From the NCBI GenBank assembly GCA_947467345.1, contig CANIHD010000005.1, positions 1 to 64,000 on the forward strand: 64,000 nucleotides of DNA. Reading direction: 5' to 3'. Shown piece after piece: positions 54,593-62,067 of the stretch. The DNA comes from Alphaproteobacteria bacterium. Its GTDB lineage: Bacteria; Pseudomonadota; Alphaproteobacteria; Micropepsales; Micropepsaceae. Position 1 is the first letter of the stretch; each line of letters opens with the position of its first letter. A model generated the notes under the pieces. The model searched no databases. It saw nothing but the letters and a program-made list of their open reading frames with translations, and had not been told where the DNA came from. The translations under genes and the position numbers were made by a program.

Positions 54593-54805
54593 ATGGGCTC
54601 GTTTAGTATTTGGCACTGGATGATCGTGATCGTGCTGGTCGTGCTGATGTTCGGCGGCCGCGGCAAGATCTCCGGGATCATGGGCGACGTCGCCCACGGC
54701 ATTCGCAATTTTCGCGAAGGCCTGAAAGATCCCAACGAACGCCGCACTCTGCCGGATGGCGAGCAGACCGCCGAGATCAAGAAAAAAGAAGAGATCCGGA
54801 GCTGA
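54593..54805 (+). CDS. tatA: Tat translocase subunit TatA
   Basis: A 70-residue protein with one N-terminal helix ([17 protein letters not shown]), a short hinge, an amphipathic helix ([20 protein letters not shown]) and a charged tail. TatA oligomers form the conduit for folded proteins with twin-arginine signals. AGGAG is 8 bases before the ATG. tatB and tatC follow. Confidence 0.95.
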
Positions 54806-54877
54806 ACCGGACGTCCCCAAACAGCCCGCGAATAATAAAGCGGGCAGGGGCCGTCGCGGCTGGGCGGCAGGTGCGTG

Positions 54878-55315
54878 ATGTTTGATATCGGCTGGACAGA
54901 GCTGCTGGTGATCGCGGTTGTTGCCGTGGTCGTCGTAGGCCCGAAGGATTTGCCAAAGTTGATGCGCGTTGTCGGCCAGTGGGCCGGCCGCGCGCGCGCC
55001 ATGGCCGATCAATTCAAGCGCAGCTTTGACGACATGGCGCGCCAGTCCGAATTGGAAGAGCTGCGCTCAGAAGTGATGAAGCTGCACGACGAGAGTTCGC
55101 TGGCTAAAATTCATCGCGAAACCGAAATCATGCTCGGCAATATCCCGGCCGATCCTATGGCCGCCGATCCCGCCGAAATCGCGCCGTCCCTGATCCGGAA
55201 CGTCGAAACCGATCCGCGCCTATTGAACAACGCCGAGGCCTCGTCCGGCCCGGTGCAGCCCAAACTGCCTGGGCTGGAGCAAGAACAGCCGCCTCCGGCG
55301 CGCGTGGAGCCGTAA
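54878..55315 (+). CDS. tatB: Tat translocase subunit TatB
   Basis: A 145-residue protein with the TatB start MFDIGWTELLVIAVVAVVVVGPKDLPKLM, a long amphipathic helix and a Pro/Glu-rich tail. TatB with TatC recognises Tat signals. The ATG at 54878 is the family start; a GTG one codon earlier is not needed. It is 3 bases from tatC. Confidence 0.95.
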   Translation: MFDIGWTELLVIAVVAVVVVGPKDLPKLMRVVGQWAGRARAMADQFKRSFDDMARQSELEELRSEVMKLHDESSLAKIHRETEIMLGNIPADPMAADPAEIAPSLIRNVETDPRLLNNAEASSGPVQPKLPGLEQEQPPPARVEP

Positions 55316-55318
55316 GAG

Positions 55319-56155
55319 ATGGCCTCGCTTACGCCCGAAGACGAAGCCGAAATCGAAGCTTCGAAGGCACCGCTGCTCGATCATTTGACCGAATTGCGCA
55401 ATCGCTTGGTCAAAGCGCTGCTCGCTTTCTTCATCGCTTTTCTCATTTGCTTCGCATTTGCCAAGCCGATCTACGGGTTTCTAACGCAGCCTCTGGCGGA
55501 TGCATTCGCCGCCACCGCGACACCGGGCGCGCCGGCGCGGCACATGATCATGACTGCGCTGTACGAAACCTTCTTTACGTATGTGAAGGTCGGCATGTTT
55601 GGCGCTCTCTGTCTCGCATTCCCATTCATGGCGATTCAAATCTGGCTGTTCATTGCGCCCGGGCTTTACCGCCATGAGCGCGCGGCGTTTTGGCCGTTCC
55701 TGGCGGCGACGCCTGTCATGTTTATAGTCGGCGCGTCCTTCGTCTATTACGTGATGCTGCCTTACGCGATCCGGTTTTTTCTCGGCTATGAAACGACCGG
55801 CGGGAATGGCGAGTTGCCCATCCAGCTCGAAGCACGCGTCGGCGAATATCTCGGCTTCGTCATGACGCTGATCTTCGCCTTTGGCCTTTGCTTCGAATTG
55901 CCGGTTCTTCTGACGCTGCTCGGCCGCATCGGCATTGTCAGCAGCGCCGGACTTAAATCAGCGCGCCGCTATGCCATCGTCGGAGTGTTTGTGGTCGCCG
56001 CGATCGTTACGCCTCCGGATGTGTTCAGCCAGGTTTCGCTGGCCGTGCCCTTGGTGCTTTTGTACGAAATCTCGATCTGGCTGGTGCGTTGGATGGAAAT
56101 CGGCCGCGCCAAGCGGGACAAAGAATCCGAATCGACTTCCGTCCAAACCCAATAG
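55319..56155 (+). CDS. tatC: Tat translocase subunit TatC
   Basis: A 278-residue, six-helix protein. The N-terminal LLDHLTELRNRLVKALLAF is the conserved cytoplasmic signal-binding segment; FALCFELPVLLTLLGRIGI is the fifth-helix region. With TatA and TatB it forms a complete Tat system, presumably used by the small Tat-signal proteins at 1648 and 59579. Confidence 0.96.
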   Translation: MASLTPEDEAEIEASKAPLLDHLTELRNRLVKALLAFFIAFLICFAFAKPIYGFLTQPLADAFAATATPGAPARHMIMTALYETFFTYVKVGMFGALCLAFPFMAIQIWLFIAPGLYRHERAAFWPFLAATPVMFIVGASFVYYVMLPYAIRFFLGYETTGGNGELPIQLEARVGEYLGFVMTLIFAFGLCFELPVLLTLLGRIGIVSSAGLKSARRYAIVGVFVVAAIVTPPDVFSQVSLAVPLVLLYEISIWLVRWMEIGRAKRDKESESTSVQTQ

Positions 56156-59388: not shown

Positions 59389-59578
59389 GCTGAAATGCGC
59401 GGTGCAAGGAGGTGAGGCCAAGCCATCCCCTTGCTTCGGAATGCGATTTCCCAATTGTGGAACTCAGCCCGCGTGGGACGGCAGAGATTAACCAAACGAT
59501 TTGTGCTCAGACCTGACACCGGTCTAAACTTTCGTCCATGTAACGCGCATGTCGTGCGGAGTCCTGGGGGAGTAAGCC

Positions 59579-59755
59579 ATGAGCAACATCATCAAAAGTG
59601 AAGCTGAAACGGCTGAGGTCAAAGCCCGCCGCGAATTTCTGAAAACTGCCGCTAAGGCCGCGATTGCGGCTCCGGCTGTGGCGCTGATACTGAGCGCGTC
59701 CACGAAGCCGGCGGAAGCGACGATCTCGTATTGCGGCCGCACCTGCGCACCCTGA
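59579..59755 (+). CDS. 58-residue Tat-signal peptide with C-terminal cysteines
   Basis: A short gene with a strong ribosome site (GGGGGAG, 6 bases before the ATG). The polar N-terminus of 16 residues leads to RREFLKTAAK, a clear twin-arginine motif, then a hydrophobic stretch AAIAAPAVALILSA and a probable cleavage site at PAEA (residue 47). What remains after cleavage is only about eleven residues, with cysteines at 52 and 56 (YCGRTCAP). A rho-independent terminator follows 20 bases later, so it is a single-gene unit. Function unknown; a Tat-exported cofactor-binding or escort peptide are possibilities. Confidence 0.82.
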   Translation: MSNIIKSEAETAEVKARREFLKTAAKAAIAAPAVALILSASTKPAEATISYCGRTCAP

Positions 59756-59774
59756 TAGATCTGCAAAGTTGAAA

Positions 59775-59803
59775 AAAACGGCGGCTTTTTAGCCGCCGTT
59801 TTT
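59775..59803. terminator. Bidirectional intrinsic terminator
   Basis: A 12-bp perfect stem (AAAACGGCGGCT / AGCCGCCGTTTT) with a TTTT loop. A-tract on one side and T-tract on the other make it work in both directions: for the Tat-signal peptide gene on the plus strand and the SEL1 protein on the minus strand, whose TAA overlaps its edge. Confidence 0.92.
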
Positions 59804-61565
59804 ATGTGTGATGCTGACTAACGGTTGAAATAGTTAAGTCTTCGACGGGAATCGGCTCAGCGTCATTTGTATGTTCGCCGACGCCTTGCGTTGCCATCAA
59901 TTGTTCGGCAATCGCATCGGCATGCGCGGTAGCTGCGAAATCACCGCCGGCTTCGGCCATGGCGTACCATTTATAAGATTCCGCGAGCGACGCTTCCACG
60001 CCGAGGCCGCGTTCATACATCACGCCGAGATTGAACTGCGCATCCGTCAGTCCGCGTTCCGCGGCCATGTGGAACCAATGCAGTGCCTGCTCGAAACTCT
60101 GTCCGCCGGCGACGTCGTTGAGATAAAAAACGCCGAGATTGTTCATGGCTTTGACGTGGCCTTGATTTGCCGCGTCGGTATACAAACGGATCGCGTGGTC
60201 GGTATCGATAGCGACGCCAATACCGTGCTCGTAACGGGTCGCCATGCGGAACTGCGCCACGGCTTCGCCGCCTTTGGCCGCGCGTTCCAGCCAGGCCATC
60301 GCCTCGCTGTCATTTCTTTCGACGCCGATGCCATCGGAATAGGCAAGGCCTAGCGCCAGCATGATCTTGGTATCGGTGGTGCCAAGGCGTTTCTCAGCTG
60401 AATGCAGGCGTTCCGCCATGGTGTTCGTGGCTTCGCATGCGAGCAGGAAGTCATTTTCAAGCGTATCAACGCTATCAGAAACGTTCTGCAATTTGCTGTG
60501 CGTATCGCTGTGCCGCGTTCCGAGTTCCTCGACTACTTTCTCCAGTTTCTCGAAAGCCGTGACGCGCGTATTCAATGCGCTTATCGCGTCCGCGATTTTG
60601 GGAACCGATGCGAGCACGGCTTCGGTGGCACCAGCGCGGGCCGTAAGCGCACTGAATTGCTCGACGGACTTCTGCTCGAAACGCTTCGCATCTTCTTGGA
60701 CGGTCGTGAATTGTAGCTTGGTGGCCATGGCGGCTTCGGCGGAACCGACGCGGGCCGTCAGCGCGCTCAAATTCTCTACGGTAGATTGCTGCGCGTGCAG
60801 CATATCTTCTTGAACTGCCGCGAATTGCGGCTGAGTCACCATAATGGCTTCGCCGGCATCGACGCGCGCGCCCAAATTATTCAATTTGTTCTCGACGCTG
60901 CCTTCAAACCGCTTGATATCGTCTTGAACGGCAGCGAATTGCGGCTGTGTCACCATGCTGAATTCGGCCGATTCCATGCGGGCAATCAGCGCCTGCAGCT
61001 TTTCGACGGTGGATTTCTCGAACTGCTTCGCTTCGCCTTGGATGGACGCATATTGCTGCTGCGTCGCCATAGTGGATTCGGTGGACTCCATCCGTTCCGC
61101 CAGCGTCTGCAGCTGGTCATGAAGCGAGCGTTCCAGGCTCTTCATATCCTCGCGCGCAGCCAAAACAGCATGCGCCAGGGTTTCGAACTGTTCGGCCTGG
61201 GTTTCGATCTTGGCGGAATTTTCCGCTTGCTGGCTGCCATGTTTGGCGATCGCTTGGGCGACATCGTCCAATTTGCCAAGTCGAGTGGCCAGCGTGTCGA
61301 TACGGTTGTCGATTTGCACGCAACGGGTGGCGACGGCATCGGTGGCGCGCAATTTTTCAGTAACAGCGTTTAGCCGCTCGTCGACGAAACCTTCGCGCAT
61401 TTCGCTGGCTTCGGAATTCTGTTCGAGATGGGCGATACGTTCCTTCAATTCCTCGAAGGCGTTGGCCTGCTCGTGCGATGCGGTGGTGATTTCAGACGTA
61501 AGGCTGGCCATCGCGTGATGGGCCTGCTGCTGCGCGGGCTCATTGGCCTCGAGCAAACGGCTCAT
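59802..61565 (-). CDS. Coiled-coil/SEL1-repeat protein, main part (frame-broken from its N-terminus)
   Basis: A 587-residue soluble protein. Residues ~1-400 are coiled coil, including four tandem 38-residue repeats at 159-310. Residues ~400-545 hold four SEL1 repeats (ALGLAYSDGIGVERNDSEAMAWLERAA and three more). There is no membrane segment. It begins at an ATG overlapping the stop of the 78-residue frame at 61562-61798, but the frame stays open upstream and encodes sensible sequence (KNRISEAVQAMSRLLEANE). A -1 shift at the A6 tract 61591-61596 would join both into one 650-residue protein resembling alphaproteobacterial polarity or localisation factors. The function is inferred only from architecture. 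Confidence 0.82.
   Translation of the reverse strand: MSRLLEANEPAQQQAHHAMASLTSEITTASHEQANAFEELKERIAHLEQNSEASEMREGFVDERLNAVTEKLRATDAVATRCVQIDNRIDTLATRLGKLDDVAQAIAKHGSQQAENSAKIETQAEQFETLAHAVLAAREDMKSLERSLHDQLQTLAERMESTESTMATQQQYASIQGEAKQFEKSTVEKLQALIARMESAEFSMVTQPQFAAVQDDIKRFEGSVENKLNNLGARVDAGEAIMVTQPQFAAVQEDMLHAQQSTVENLSALTARVGSAEAAMATKLQFTTVQEDAKRFEQKSVEQFSALTARAGATEAVLASVPKIADAISALNTRVTAFEKLEKVVEELGTRHSDTHSKLQNVSDSVDTLENDFLLACEATNTMAERLHSAEKRLGTTDTKIMLALGLAYSDGIGVERNDSEAMAWLERAAKGGEAVAQFRMATRYEHGIGVAIDTDHAIRLYTDAANQGHVKAMNNLGVFYLNDVAGGQSFEQALHWFHMAAERGLTDAQFNLGVMYERGLGVEASLAESYKWYAMAEAGGDFAATAHADAIAEQLMATQGVGEHTNDAEPIPVEDLTISTVSQHHT
60636..61091 (-). repeat. Four tandem 114-bp coding repeats (38 residues each)
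   Basis: Inside the SEL1 protein, residues 159-196, 197-234, 235-272 and 273-310 align without gaps. Shared positions include the motif (M/T)Q-x-QF-A-x-VQ-x-D near the middle and L-x-AL-x-AR at the end of each unit. A fifth, decayed unit may follow. Confidence 0.85.
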
Positions 61566-61798
61566 GGCCTGTACGGCCTCGCTGATGCGATTTTTTGAGA
61601 CGGGAGTCGGCTCTGCTTTGGACTCTGCTTTTGTACGTGGGCGGAGGGCTGGCCATGCGGCGCGCTTGAATTTTGTTCACGCAGGCGCCGTTGCAGCCAT
61701 TCGTCGACGGCTAGACCATCTTGAGCGGCGGCAGCGCGTACGCGCTCCCAAGCCTCGGGAGCAATGCCGGCTAAATCCAAGTTTCTCTGTGGCTGCAT
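61562..61798 (-). CDS. N-terminal segment of the split coiled-coil/SEL1 protein
   Basis: A 78-residue frame starting MQPQRNLDLAGIAPEAWERV, then AAAAQDGLAVDEWLQRRLRE. The pattern IxPEAxExxxxAAxxxGLxVxEWL is the N-terminal mark of PodJ-like and related alphaproteobacterial SEL1 coiled-coil proteins. The frame ends in low-complexity sequence and a TGA that overlaps the ATG of the main part (ATGA). Either it is the front end of one protein split by a single-base change, or the two are translated as separate, coupled products. Confidence 0.68.
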   Translation of the reverse strand: MQPQRNLDLAGIAPEAWERVRAAAAQDGLAVDEWLQRRLREQNSSAPHGQPSAHVQKQSPKQSRLPSQKIASARPYRP

Positions 61799-61812
61799 TC
61801 TGCCCTCGCCGT

Positions 61813-61849
61813 AACGTCATCGGCGGCGCCTCAGCGCCGCAAAACGTCA
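61813..61849. other. Hairpin with flanking heptamer repeats upstream of the SEL1 gene
   Basis: A 7-bp stem (GCGGCGC at 61823-61829, GCGCCGC at 61834-61840) is flanked by two AACGTCA copies 30 bases apart (61813, 61843). It lies 15-50 bases upstream of the ATG at 61798, in the likely leader or promoter. Role unknown. The rest of the 269-base gap up to 62067 shows no gene. Confidence 0.4.
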
Positions 61850-62067
61850 CCCCATGTCCCCCTAAAAACCCCATGGGACGGATCGGTCCTCCGGGCTCTA
61901 GGTCGACGCCTAATCTCGACGAGCAAAGTTAATGTGGACTTACCACCATTCTGAAAATTCGATCTGAGGCGCCGGCGCGGCGTAAAAAACCAGCTGAGCG
62001 GGGCATTTTCCTCCGCCCCTCCGTGGAGGGACTGTCATAAATCGAGGGGGGCGGGCAGGGCGACGGC

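Follow-up and report, generated by a model that had tools for sequence, protein, structure and literature searches.

A short Tat-signal peptide gene as a probable orphan precursor for a PqqD+HPr-kinase-like fusion and an NTP_transf_5 enzyme

The 58-codon open reading frame (ORF) at 59579-59755 of the window, the whole 64-kb stretch of DNA analyzed here, is a real and intact-looking gene. We consider it probable that this gene is an orphan RiPP-like precursor, with a Tat-type signal that doubles as the leader for a pair of enzymes encoded on another contig (C17) of the same genome: a fusion of a PqqD domain to an HPr-kinase-like domain and an NTP_transf_5 protein. The link between the wider family of such peptides and these enzymes is well supported, as leader and fusion co-occur and co-vary across genomes.

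The peptide gene and its genomic setting

The features of the gene and of the neighboring tat genes are listed below.

54593..54805, + strand: tatA (Pfam TatA_B_E, matched twice across tatA/tatB)
54875..55315, + strand: tatB (Pfam TatA_B_E)
55319..56155, + strand: tatC (Pfam TatC)
59566..59572, + strand: likely ribosome site, GGGGGAG, 6 nt before the ATG (sequence reading)
59579..59755, + strand: 58-codon peptide gene, stop included (ORF list, codon use, leader homologues in genome G084)
59579..59719, + strand: Tat-type signal and presumed leader, residues 1-47 (sequence reading; similar leaders beside enzymes)
59663..59680, + strand: I29-A-A-P32-A-V34, proposed RRE contact of the Phi-x-x-P kind (alignment A3; motif from PMC12710340)
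59720..59752, + strand: presumed core or mature peptide TISYCGRTCAP, residues 48-58, after a predicted cleavage (sequence reading)
59774..59803, no strand assigned: terminator hairpin, 18 bases past the stop of the peptide gene (computed fold)

The ORF list bears out the sequence and coordinates reported in the first-pass annotation, which described 58 residues ending in a tail of about 11 with two cysteines. Translation starts at an ATG at 59579 and ends at a TGA at 59753-59755, and a longer start is ruled out by an in-frame TAA (59573-59575) two codons upstream. The likely counterpart of the strong ribosome site in that annotation is GGGGGAG. The codon score of the ORF is 0.246, compared with 0.18-0.33 in 15 neighboring genes and at most 0.074 in the other five frames at the locus. 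Past the stop, the hairpin folds at -21.9 kcal/mol (z -4.7; none of 200 shuffles as good) and is not among the output of a simple terminator scanner; because it runs into the stop codon of the convergent Sel1-repeat gene, both genes probably share it.

The peptide reads MSNIIKSEAETAEVKARREFLKTAAKAAIAAPAVALILSASTKPAEA / TISYCGRTCAP, the slash marking the presumed cleavage. An arginine pair at residues 17-18 (ARREFLK) is followed by an uncharged stretch and by A-E-A at 45-47, and the sequence features of a Tat substrate (RR motif, uncharged core, A-x-A site) are thus all present; C52 and C56 form a C-x3-C in the tail. The signal had been called a textbook twin-arginine one, which holds for RR-E-F-L-K, the uncharged core and AEA, but not for the curated Tat models, where the peptide scores below cut-off (14.4 bits against 16.7 for TIGR01409 and 10.7 against 22.7 for PF10518). 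Apart from this peptide, no small ORF in the 64-kb window fits the motif derived from its relatives, which was written once those relatives had been seen.

As judged from the tatABC genes at 54593..56155, a predicted Tat export route is present in the source genome. The peptide gene lies 3.4 kb after these genes, with serS and surE in between, and is flanked by an M23/LysM gene and the convergent Sel1-repeat gene. No modification enzyme stands beside it, and no formate dehydrogenase gene was recognized among the ORFs read around it. In the congeners G004 and G002 (two regions read), the M23/LysM gene directly abuts a DUF815 ATPase gene, and the peptide and Sel1 genes, in about 2.7 kb, are therefore missing there. 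The segment in question (59389-62067 in the window) holds the peptide gene, a 587-aa Sel1-repeat gene and a 78-aa ORF, and is absent from the loci of these two congeners (L040, L041). No peptide relative was detected in the six other congeners searched.

Relatives of the leader and their enzymes

A search of 147 related genomes (E<=0.001) matched the peptide in two: the window's own genome (G000), with one detected copy, and G084, with two copies that resemble the window peptide over the leader only. The same holds in alignments A1 and A3, where peptides align over the leader alone and the tails vary. Conservation of the CGRTC tail, which the first-pass annotation proposed to check, was not seen in any relative read, while the leader is conserved in the relatives found. 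The annotation had named such an outcome as refuting its reading; in a RiPP-like precursor, however, it is the leader that should be conserved and the tail that should vary. Scans of genome contigs with the peptide protein and then with alignment A1 confirmed no relative, and a tblastn search of plasmids with the window peptide found none. Several matches were set aside or regarded with doubt: one at the level of the order, in G042, falls within a 167-aa ORF whose product looks like any ordinary exported protein; two A1 matches, in G339 and G430, are located inside long frames and seem spurious; and of the peptide-profile matches, that in G351 is a 382-aa protein and that in G344 is doubtful. 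The last four were retained in the Fisher tests below. In NCBIfam scans, none of five enzyme-linked peptides reaches a cut-off, and among six other relatives only the G386 peptide passes, with a general Tat signal model.

The candidate enzymes of the own genome are encoded together on contig C17, as a PqqD+HPr-kinase-like fusion (404 aa) and an NTP_transf_5 enzyme (421 aa) whose genes run tail to tail, with a 14-base overlap. They are the only fusion and the only NTP_transf_5 protein detected in that genome, and they are not physically linked to the peptide, which is on contig C5. The NTP_transf_5 enzyme matches PF14907 (E=3.1e-54; 184.6 bits, above the gathering cut-off of 31.2), the family to which, we assume, PsmN of the pseudomycoidin system belongs. 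In the fusion, the PqqD part is recognized at E=1.8e-8 and also matches the lasso RRE TfuB1 (6jx3, E=5.7e-5), which we take to be the protein called FusE. Its kinase part matches HprK_rel_A (TIGR04352) at E=7.4e-29, but with 100.7 bits it falls under the curated cut-off of 200, as do all seven fusions scanned (52.7-118.5 bits), and it is therefore not filed as a member; by analogy, we take the fusion as likely to work like an HprK_rel_A enzyme nonetheless.

Across 96 genomes of the order, NTP_transf_5 occurs in 23 (22 above cut-off); in a comparison of 26 of its 33 matches, the subfamily near the own enzyme (44-56% identity) appeared in G000 and G084 alone. The own fusion protein, used as a query, finds matches in four of the 96. 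Those in G000 and G084 are the only ones approaching full length; G025 gives a remote match, and G002, of the same genus, has a PqqD-like ORF that stops after 178 residues, close to the end of a contig, and lacks a detected peptide. The same two genomes of the order thus hold both the peptide and the close enzyme pair.

In G084 the peptides stand beside such genes. One copy has a PqqD+HPr-kinase-like gene on one side and a JmjC_2 gene on the other, the second has two JmjC_2 genes after it, and both loci encode a long NTP_transf_5 protein. Among the relatives found, those closest to this fusion and nucleotidyltransferase are the pair on contig C17 of G000. On contig C5 of G084 the NTP_transf_5 domain is part of a fusion with TPR and GT41 (OGT-like) domains; the protein on contig C93, matched against PF14907 alone, has 992 aa. 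These enzymes suggest glycosylation and hydroxylation of the neighboring peptides. At the two coding regions, L037:3061-6114 and L038:3165-6143, each NTP_transf_5 protein is about 1000 aa long and stands beside JmjC_2 genes and Tat-leader peptides.

For the class as a whole, a fusion profile built from six proteins and a peptide profile built from nine were run on the same 385 genomes. The fusion was found in 27, the peptide in 13 and both in eight. When the own genome is excluded, 7 of the 12 genomes with the peptide carry the fusion, compared with 19 of the remaining 372 (Fisher p=1.8e-6). Six of the seven genomes with strong fusion matches (E<1e-60) have the peptide (p=1.5e-9), and profile A1, built before the enzymes were known, gives 3/6 against 23/378 (p=0.005). 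In the seventh strong-fusion genome, G405, the start of a leader (MDDVKATENEIESVDETVSAERRKFLKKAGTVAVAA) comes right after the fusion gene and is cut by the contig end; spotted by eye afterwards, it is not counted in these tests. The similarity of leaders tracks that of fusions (Mantel r=0.66; none of 20,000 permutations as high) over 12 genomes or plasmids, with one leader taken per genome where several exist, although shared phylogeny and genome size may inflate both this value and the co-occurrence.

The genes also tend to be neighbors: in five of the seven genomes other than the own with both (G181, G279, G326, G439, G474), no more than 1.5 kb separates a peptide from a fusion or kinase match, and the distance is at most about 1.3 kb at all four plasmid loci opened, out of 17 matches. 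Among the 26 other fusion-positive genomes, 19 have no peptide-profile match; most of these hold weaker matches to the kinase half only, and motif-matching peptides adjoin several of them. Unlinked copies are found as well. G474 has two besides a linked one, the peptides of G452 lie 52 kb and 2.1 Mb from the fusion gene, and G173 is fusion-positive with no peptide match on the contig of the fusion. The orphan gene of the window fits the picture of the family. G173 yields six peptide matches on three contigs, two of which, located at two contig ends, have a stretch of 131 bases in common and are probably one gene, making five copies; very short tails (~7-9 residues) and Cys-rich tails both occur among them.

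Motif rules were also tried on these loci. A first loose Tat rule for spotting peptides fired on antisense ORFs, and so did a revised one (13 of 28 kinase, 6 of 26 NTP_transf_5 and 7 of 28 M23/Sel1 loci, the last including L017, which holds the window peptide); given its matches at control loci and on antisense ORFs, the rule was dropped. A stricter motif, written after the peptides had been seen, requiring proline and missing L119, L144 and L146, is found at 12 of 28 kinase loci (at L132 the match looks antisense), at 1 of 26 NTP_transf_5 loci (in G013, genuine-looking) and at none of 27 M23/Sel1 loci, a count that omits L017. Excerpts of PMC12710340 describe an RRE of YxxP type in lasso systems. 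The related pattern Phi-x-x-P-x-Phi occurs in 21 of 36 family peptides against 1 of 11 controls, which is weak evidence, with some peptides preselected by the proline motif, many controls looking non-genic and L045 taken at the wrong RR. Freer of selection bias is alignment A3, because its nine members were chosen without the proline rule: a proline in the signal core is invariant in all nine leaders, the third residue ahead of it is often Y, I, V or L, and the window peptide has I-A-A-P at this position.

Proposed pathway, alternatives and known systems

The first-pass annotation had offered an escort, a metal-binding peptide or a modified-peptide precursor as possible roles. We found no evidence for the escort or the metal-binding peptide; the precursor is favored, its homologues lying in modification-like loci and the enzymes co-occurring with the peptide. 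A fuller version of this reading, which we advance tentatively, is that the Tat signal is itself the leader, that its proline-bearing core is read by PqqD (Phi-x-x-P) and then by the Tat translocase, and that one PqqD+kinase and NTP_transf_5 pair modifies scattered precursors in trans, which Tat exports decorated. In the main, probable reading, the PqqD domain would bind the 47-residue leader, probably at I-A-A-P. By analogy with related enzymes, the fusion kinase might then phosphorylate a Ser, Thr or Tyr of TISYCGRTCAP in the cytoplasm (T48, S50, Y51 and T55 are the candidates), and the NTP_transf_5 enzyme could cap that phosphate with a sugar or nucleotide before export. The finished peptide would leave by Tat and be cut after AEA. 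Cytoplasmic modification before export would explain the Tat route for so short a product. Counting against this reading are the unconserved tail, the missing linkage in G000, the PqqD-like ORF of G002 in a genome with no detected peptide, the peptides of G386, G208 and G216 in genomes with no detected fusion, and the 19 fusion-positive genomes that lack a peptide-profile match.

We find it unlikely that the gene encodes an ordinary unmodified small Tat-exported peptide (an escort, a decoy or another periplasmic product) whose resemblance to the other peptides stems from Tat-signal composition or from ancestry without shared function. The signal does read as Tat with tatABC nearby, there is no enzyme beside the gene, the tail is not conserved, and similar peptides occur without a detected fusion in G386, G208 and G216. 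Each genome has many Tat signals, and composition alone should match most genomes, whereas only 2 of 147 and 13 of 385 do; the matching genomes are, moreover, enriched for the fusion, and leader and enzyme similarity go together.

Also improbable is the reading in which the C-x3-C tail is the working part, of a Cys-based metal-binding peptide or one modified by radical-SAM or MNIO enzymes, and the kinase system is irrelevant. Two cysteines among 11 residues are suggestive, as are the Cys-rich tails of three tandem relatives in G173 (a genome that has the fusion as well), and the best NCBIfam match of the peptide is TIGR04117 (Cys-x3 radical SAM target, E=0.001), but membership was rejected at 19.1 bits against a cut-off of 50, over a stretch that includes the signal, and no conserved CGRTC was found. 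We have serious doubts, too, that the gene is a decaying remnant, in which only the signal peptide survives of what used to be a longer exported protein, or else a recent arrival that serves no function. The short, unconserved tail, the location within the ~2.7 kb missing from two congeners at the same place and the failure to detect the peptide in six others would suit such an origin. However, equally short tails exist in G173, which has the fusion. The gene also has its ribosome site, a forced start and gene-like codon use, and with a hairpin only 18 bases after the stop there is no space that a lost domain could have occupied.

If the window gene is read as a modified precursor, one of its closest known counterparts is the HPr-rel-A system (TIGR04352 HprK_rel_A, TIGR04353 PqqD_rel_X) with PF14907, which likewise combines an HPr-kinase-like domain with a PqqD-type peptide chaperone; an NTP_transf_5 gene is adjacent both in the own pair and at other loci compared. 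Here, in contrast, PqqD and kinase form one protein, far below the HprK_rel_A cut-off, and the precursor is a Tat-signal peptide, unlinked in G000. The formate dehydrogenase region TAT target family (TIGR02811) also comprises short proteins that are mostly Tat signal, and membership was rejected (16.1 bits against a cut-off of 48.45). Bufferins carry Sec signals. Together with DUF2282 precursors, they share with the window peptide a secretion signal on a modified-peptide precursor (as described in excerpts of PMC12452194 for bufferins and of PMC12710340 for DUF2282), but they use other enzymes (MNIO, DUF2063) and Sec, not Tat.

Kinase-tailored lasso peptides (paeninodin with PadeK, pseudomycoidin with PsmK/PsmN) offer an HPr-kinase-like kinase, a nucleotidyltransferase-like partner and a YxxP-type RRE (excerpts of PMC9266682 and PMC12710340). 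According to passages of the review PMC9266682, an HPr-kinase homologue phosphorylates the C-terminal Ser of the precursor, and the phosphorylated Ser receives hexoses only if PsmN, annotated as a nucleotidyltransferase, is present; the same passages leave open whether a host enzyme adds the pseudomycoidin sugar. The family described here differs in having no conserved C-terminal Ser and a Tat signal as leader, and no lasso cyclase or B2 protease was recognized in the 16 kb around the C17 pair (L057, where Pfam was run on four proteins and the others were judged by reading). Our literature search recognized nothing describing a Tat-type leader for a PqqD+kinase and NTP_transf_5 system, and our claim of novelty is limited to that. 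If the precursor reading is true, PqqD+HPr-kinase-like and NTP_transf_5 loci gain a testable substrate, a cytoplasmic peptide-modification system is tied to the Tat route, and short Tat-tagged alphaproteobacterial ORFs that otherwise look pointless find an explanation. Precursors are predicted not to need to adjoin their enzymes, and cluster-based mining would therefore miss them.

Tandem copies and tails in the wider family

Some loci of the family show tandem arrangements. Three tandem peptides in G173 (L185-L187; L193:8427-9500) have near-identical leaders and Cys-rich tails, e.g. LLKYVCDKVEVNCVPCSTCTPCDVICKDW, and no modification enzyme was recognized, by reading, in the surrounding 18 kb. 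Three tandem Tat-leader peptides in G013 (L105:7167-8332), with a Y-S-A-P core and basic tails, adjoin an NTP_transf_5 of another subfamily; G013 has no PqqD+kinase match. At six further loci (L168, L172, L173, L174, L188 and L189) the tails share a Gly/Asn-rich stretch near GNNGFGNGGGDGxPG, and some family members therefore do have a conserved tail.
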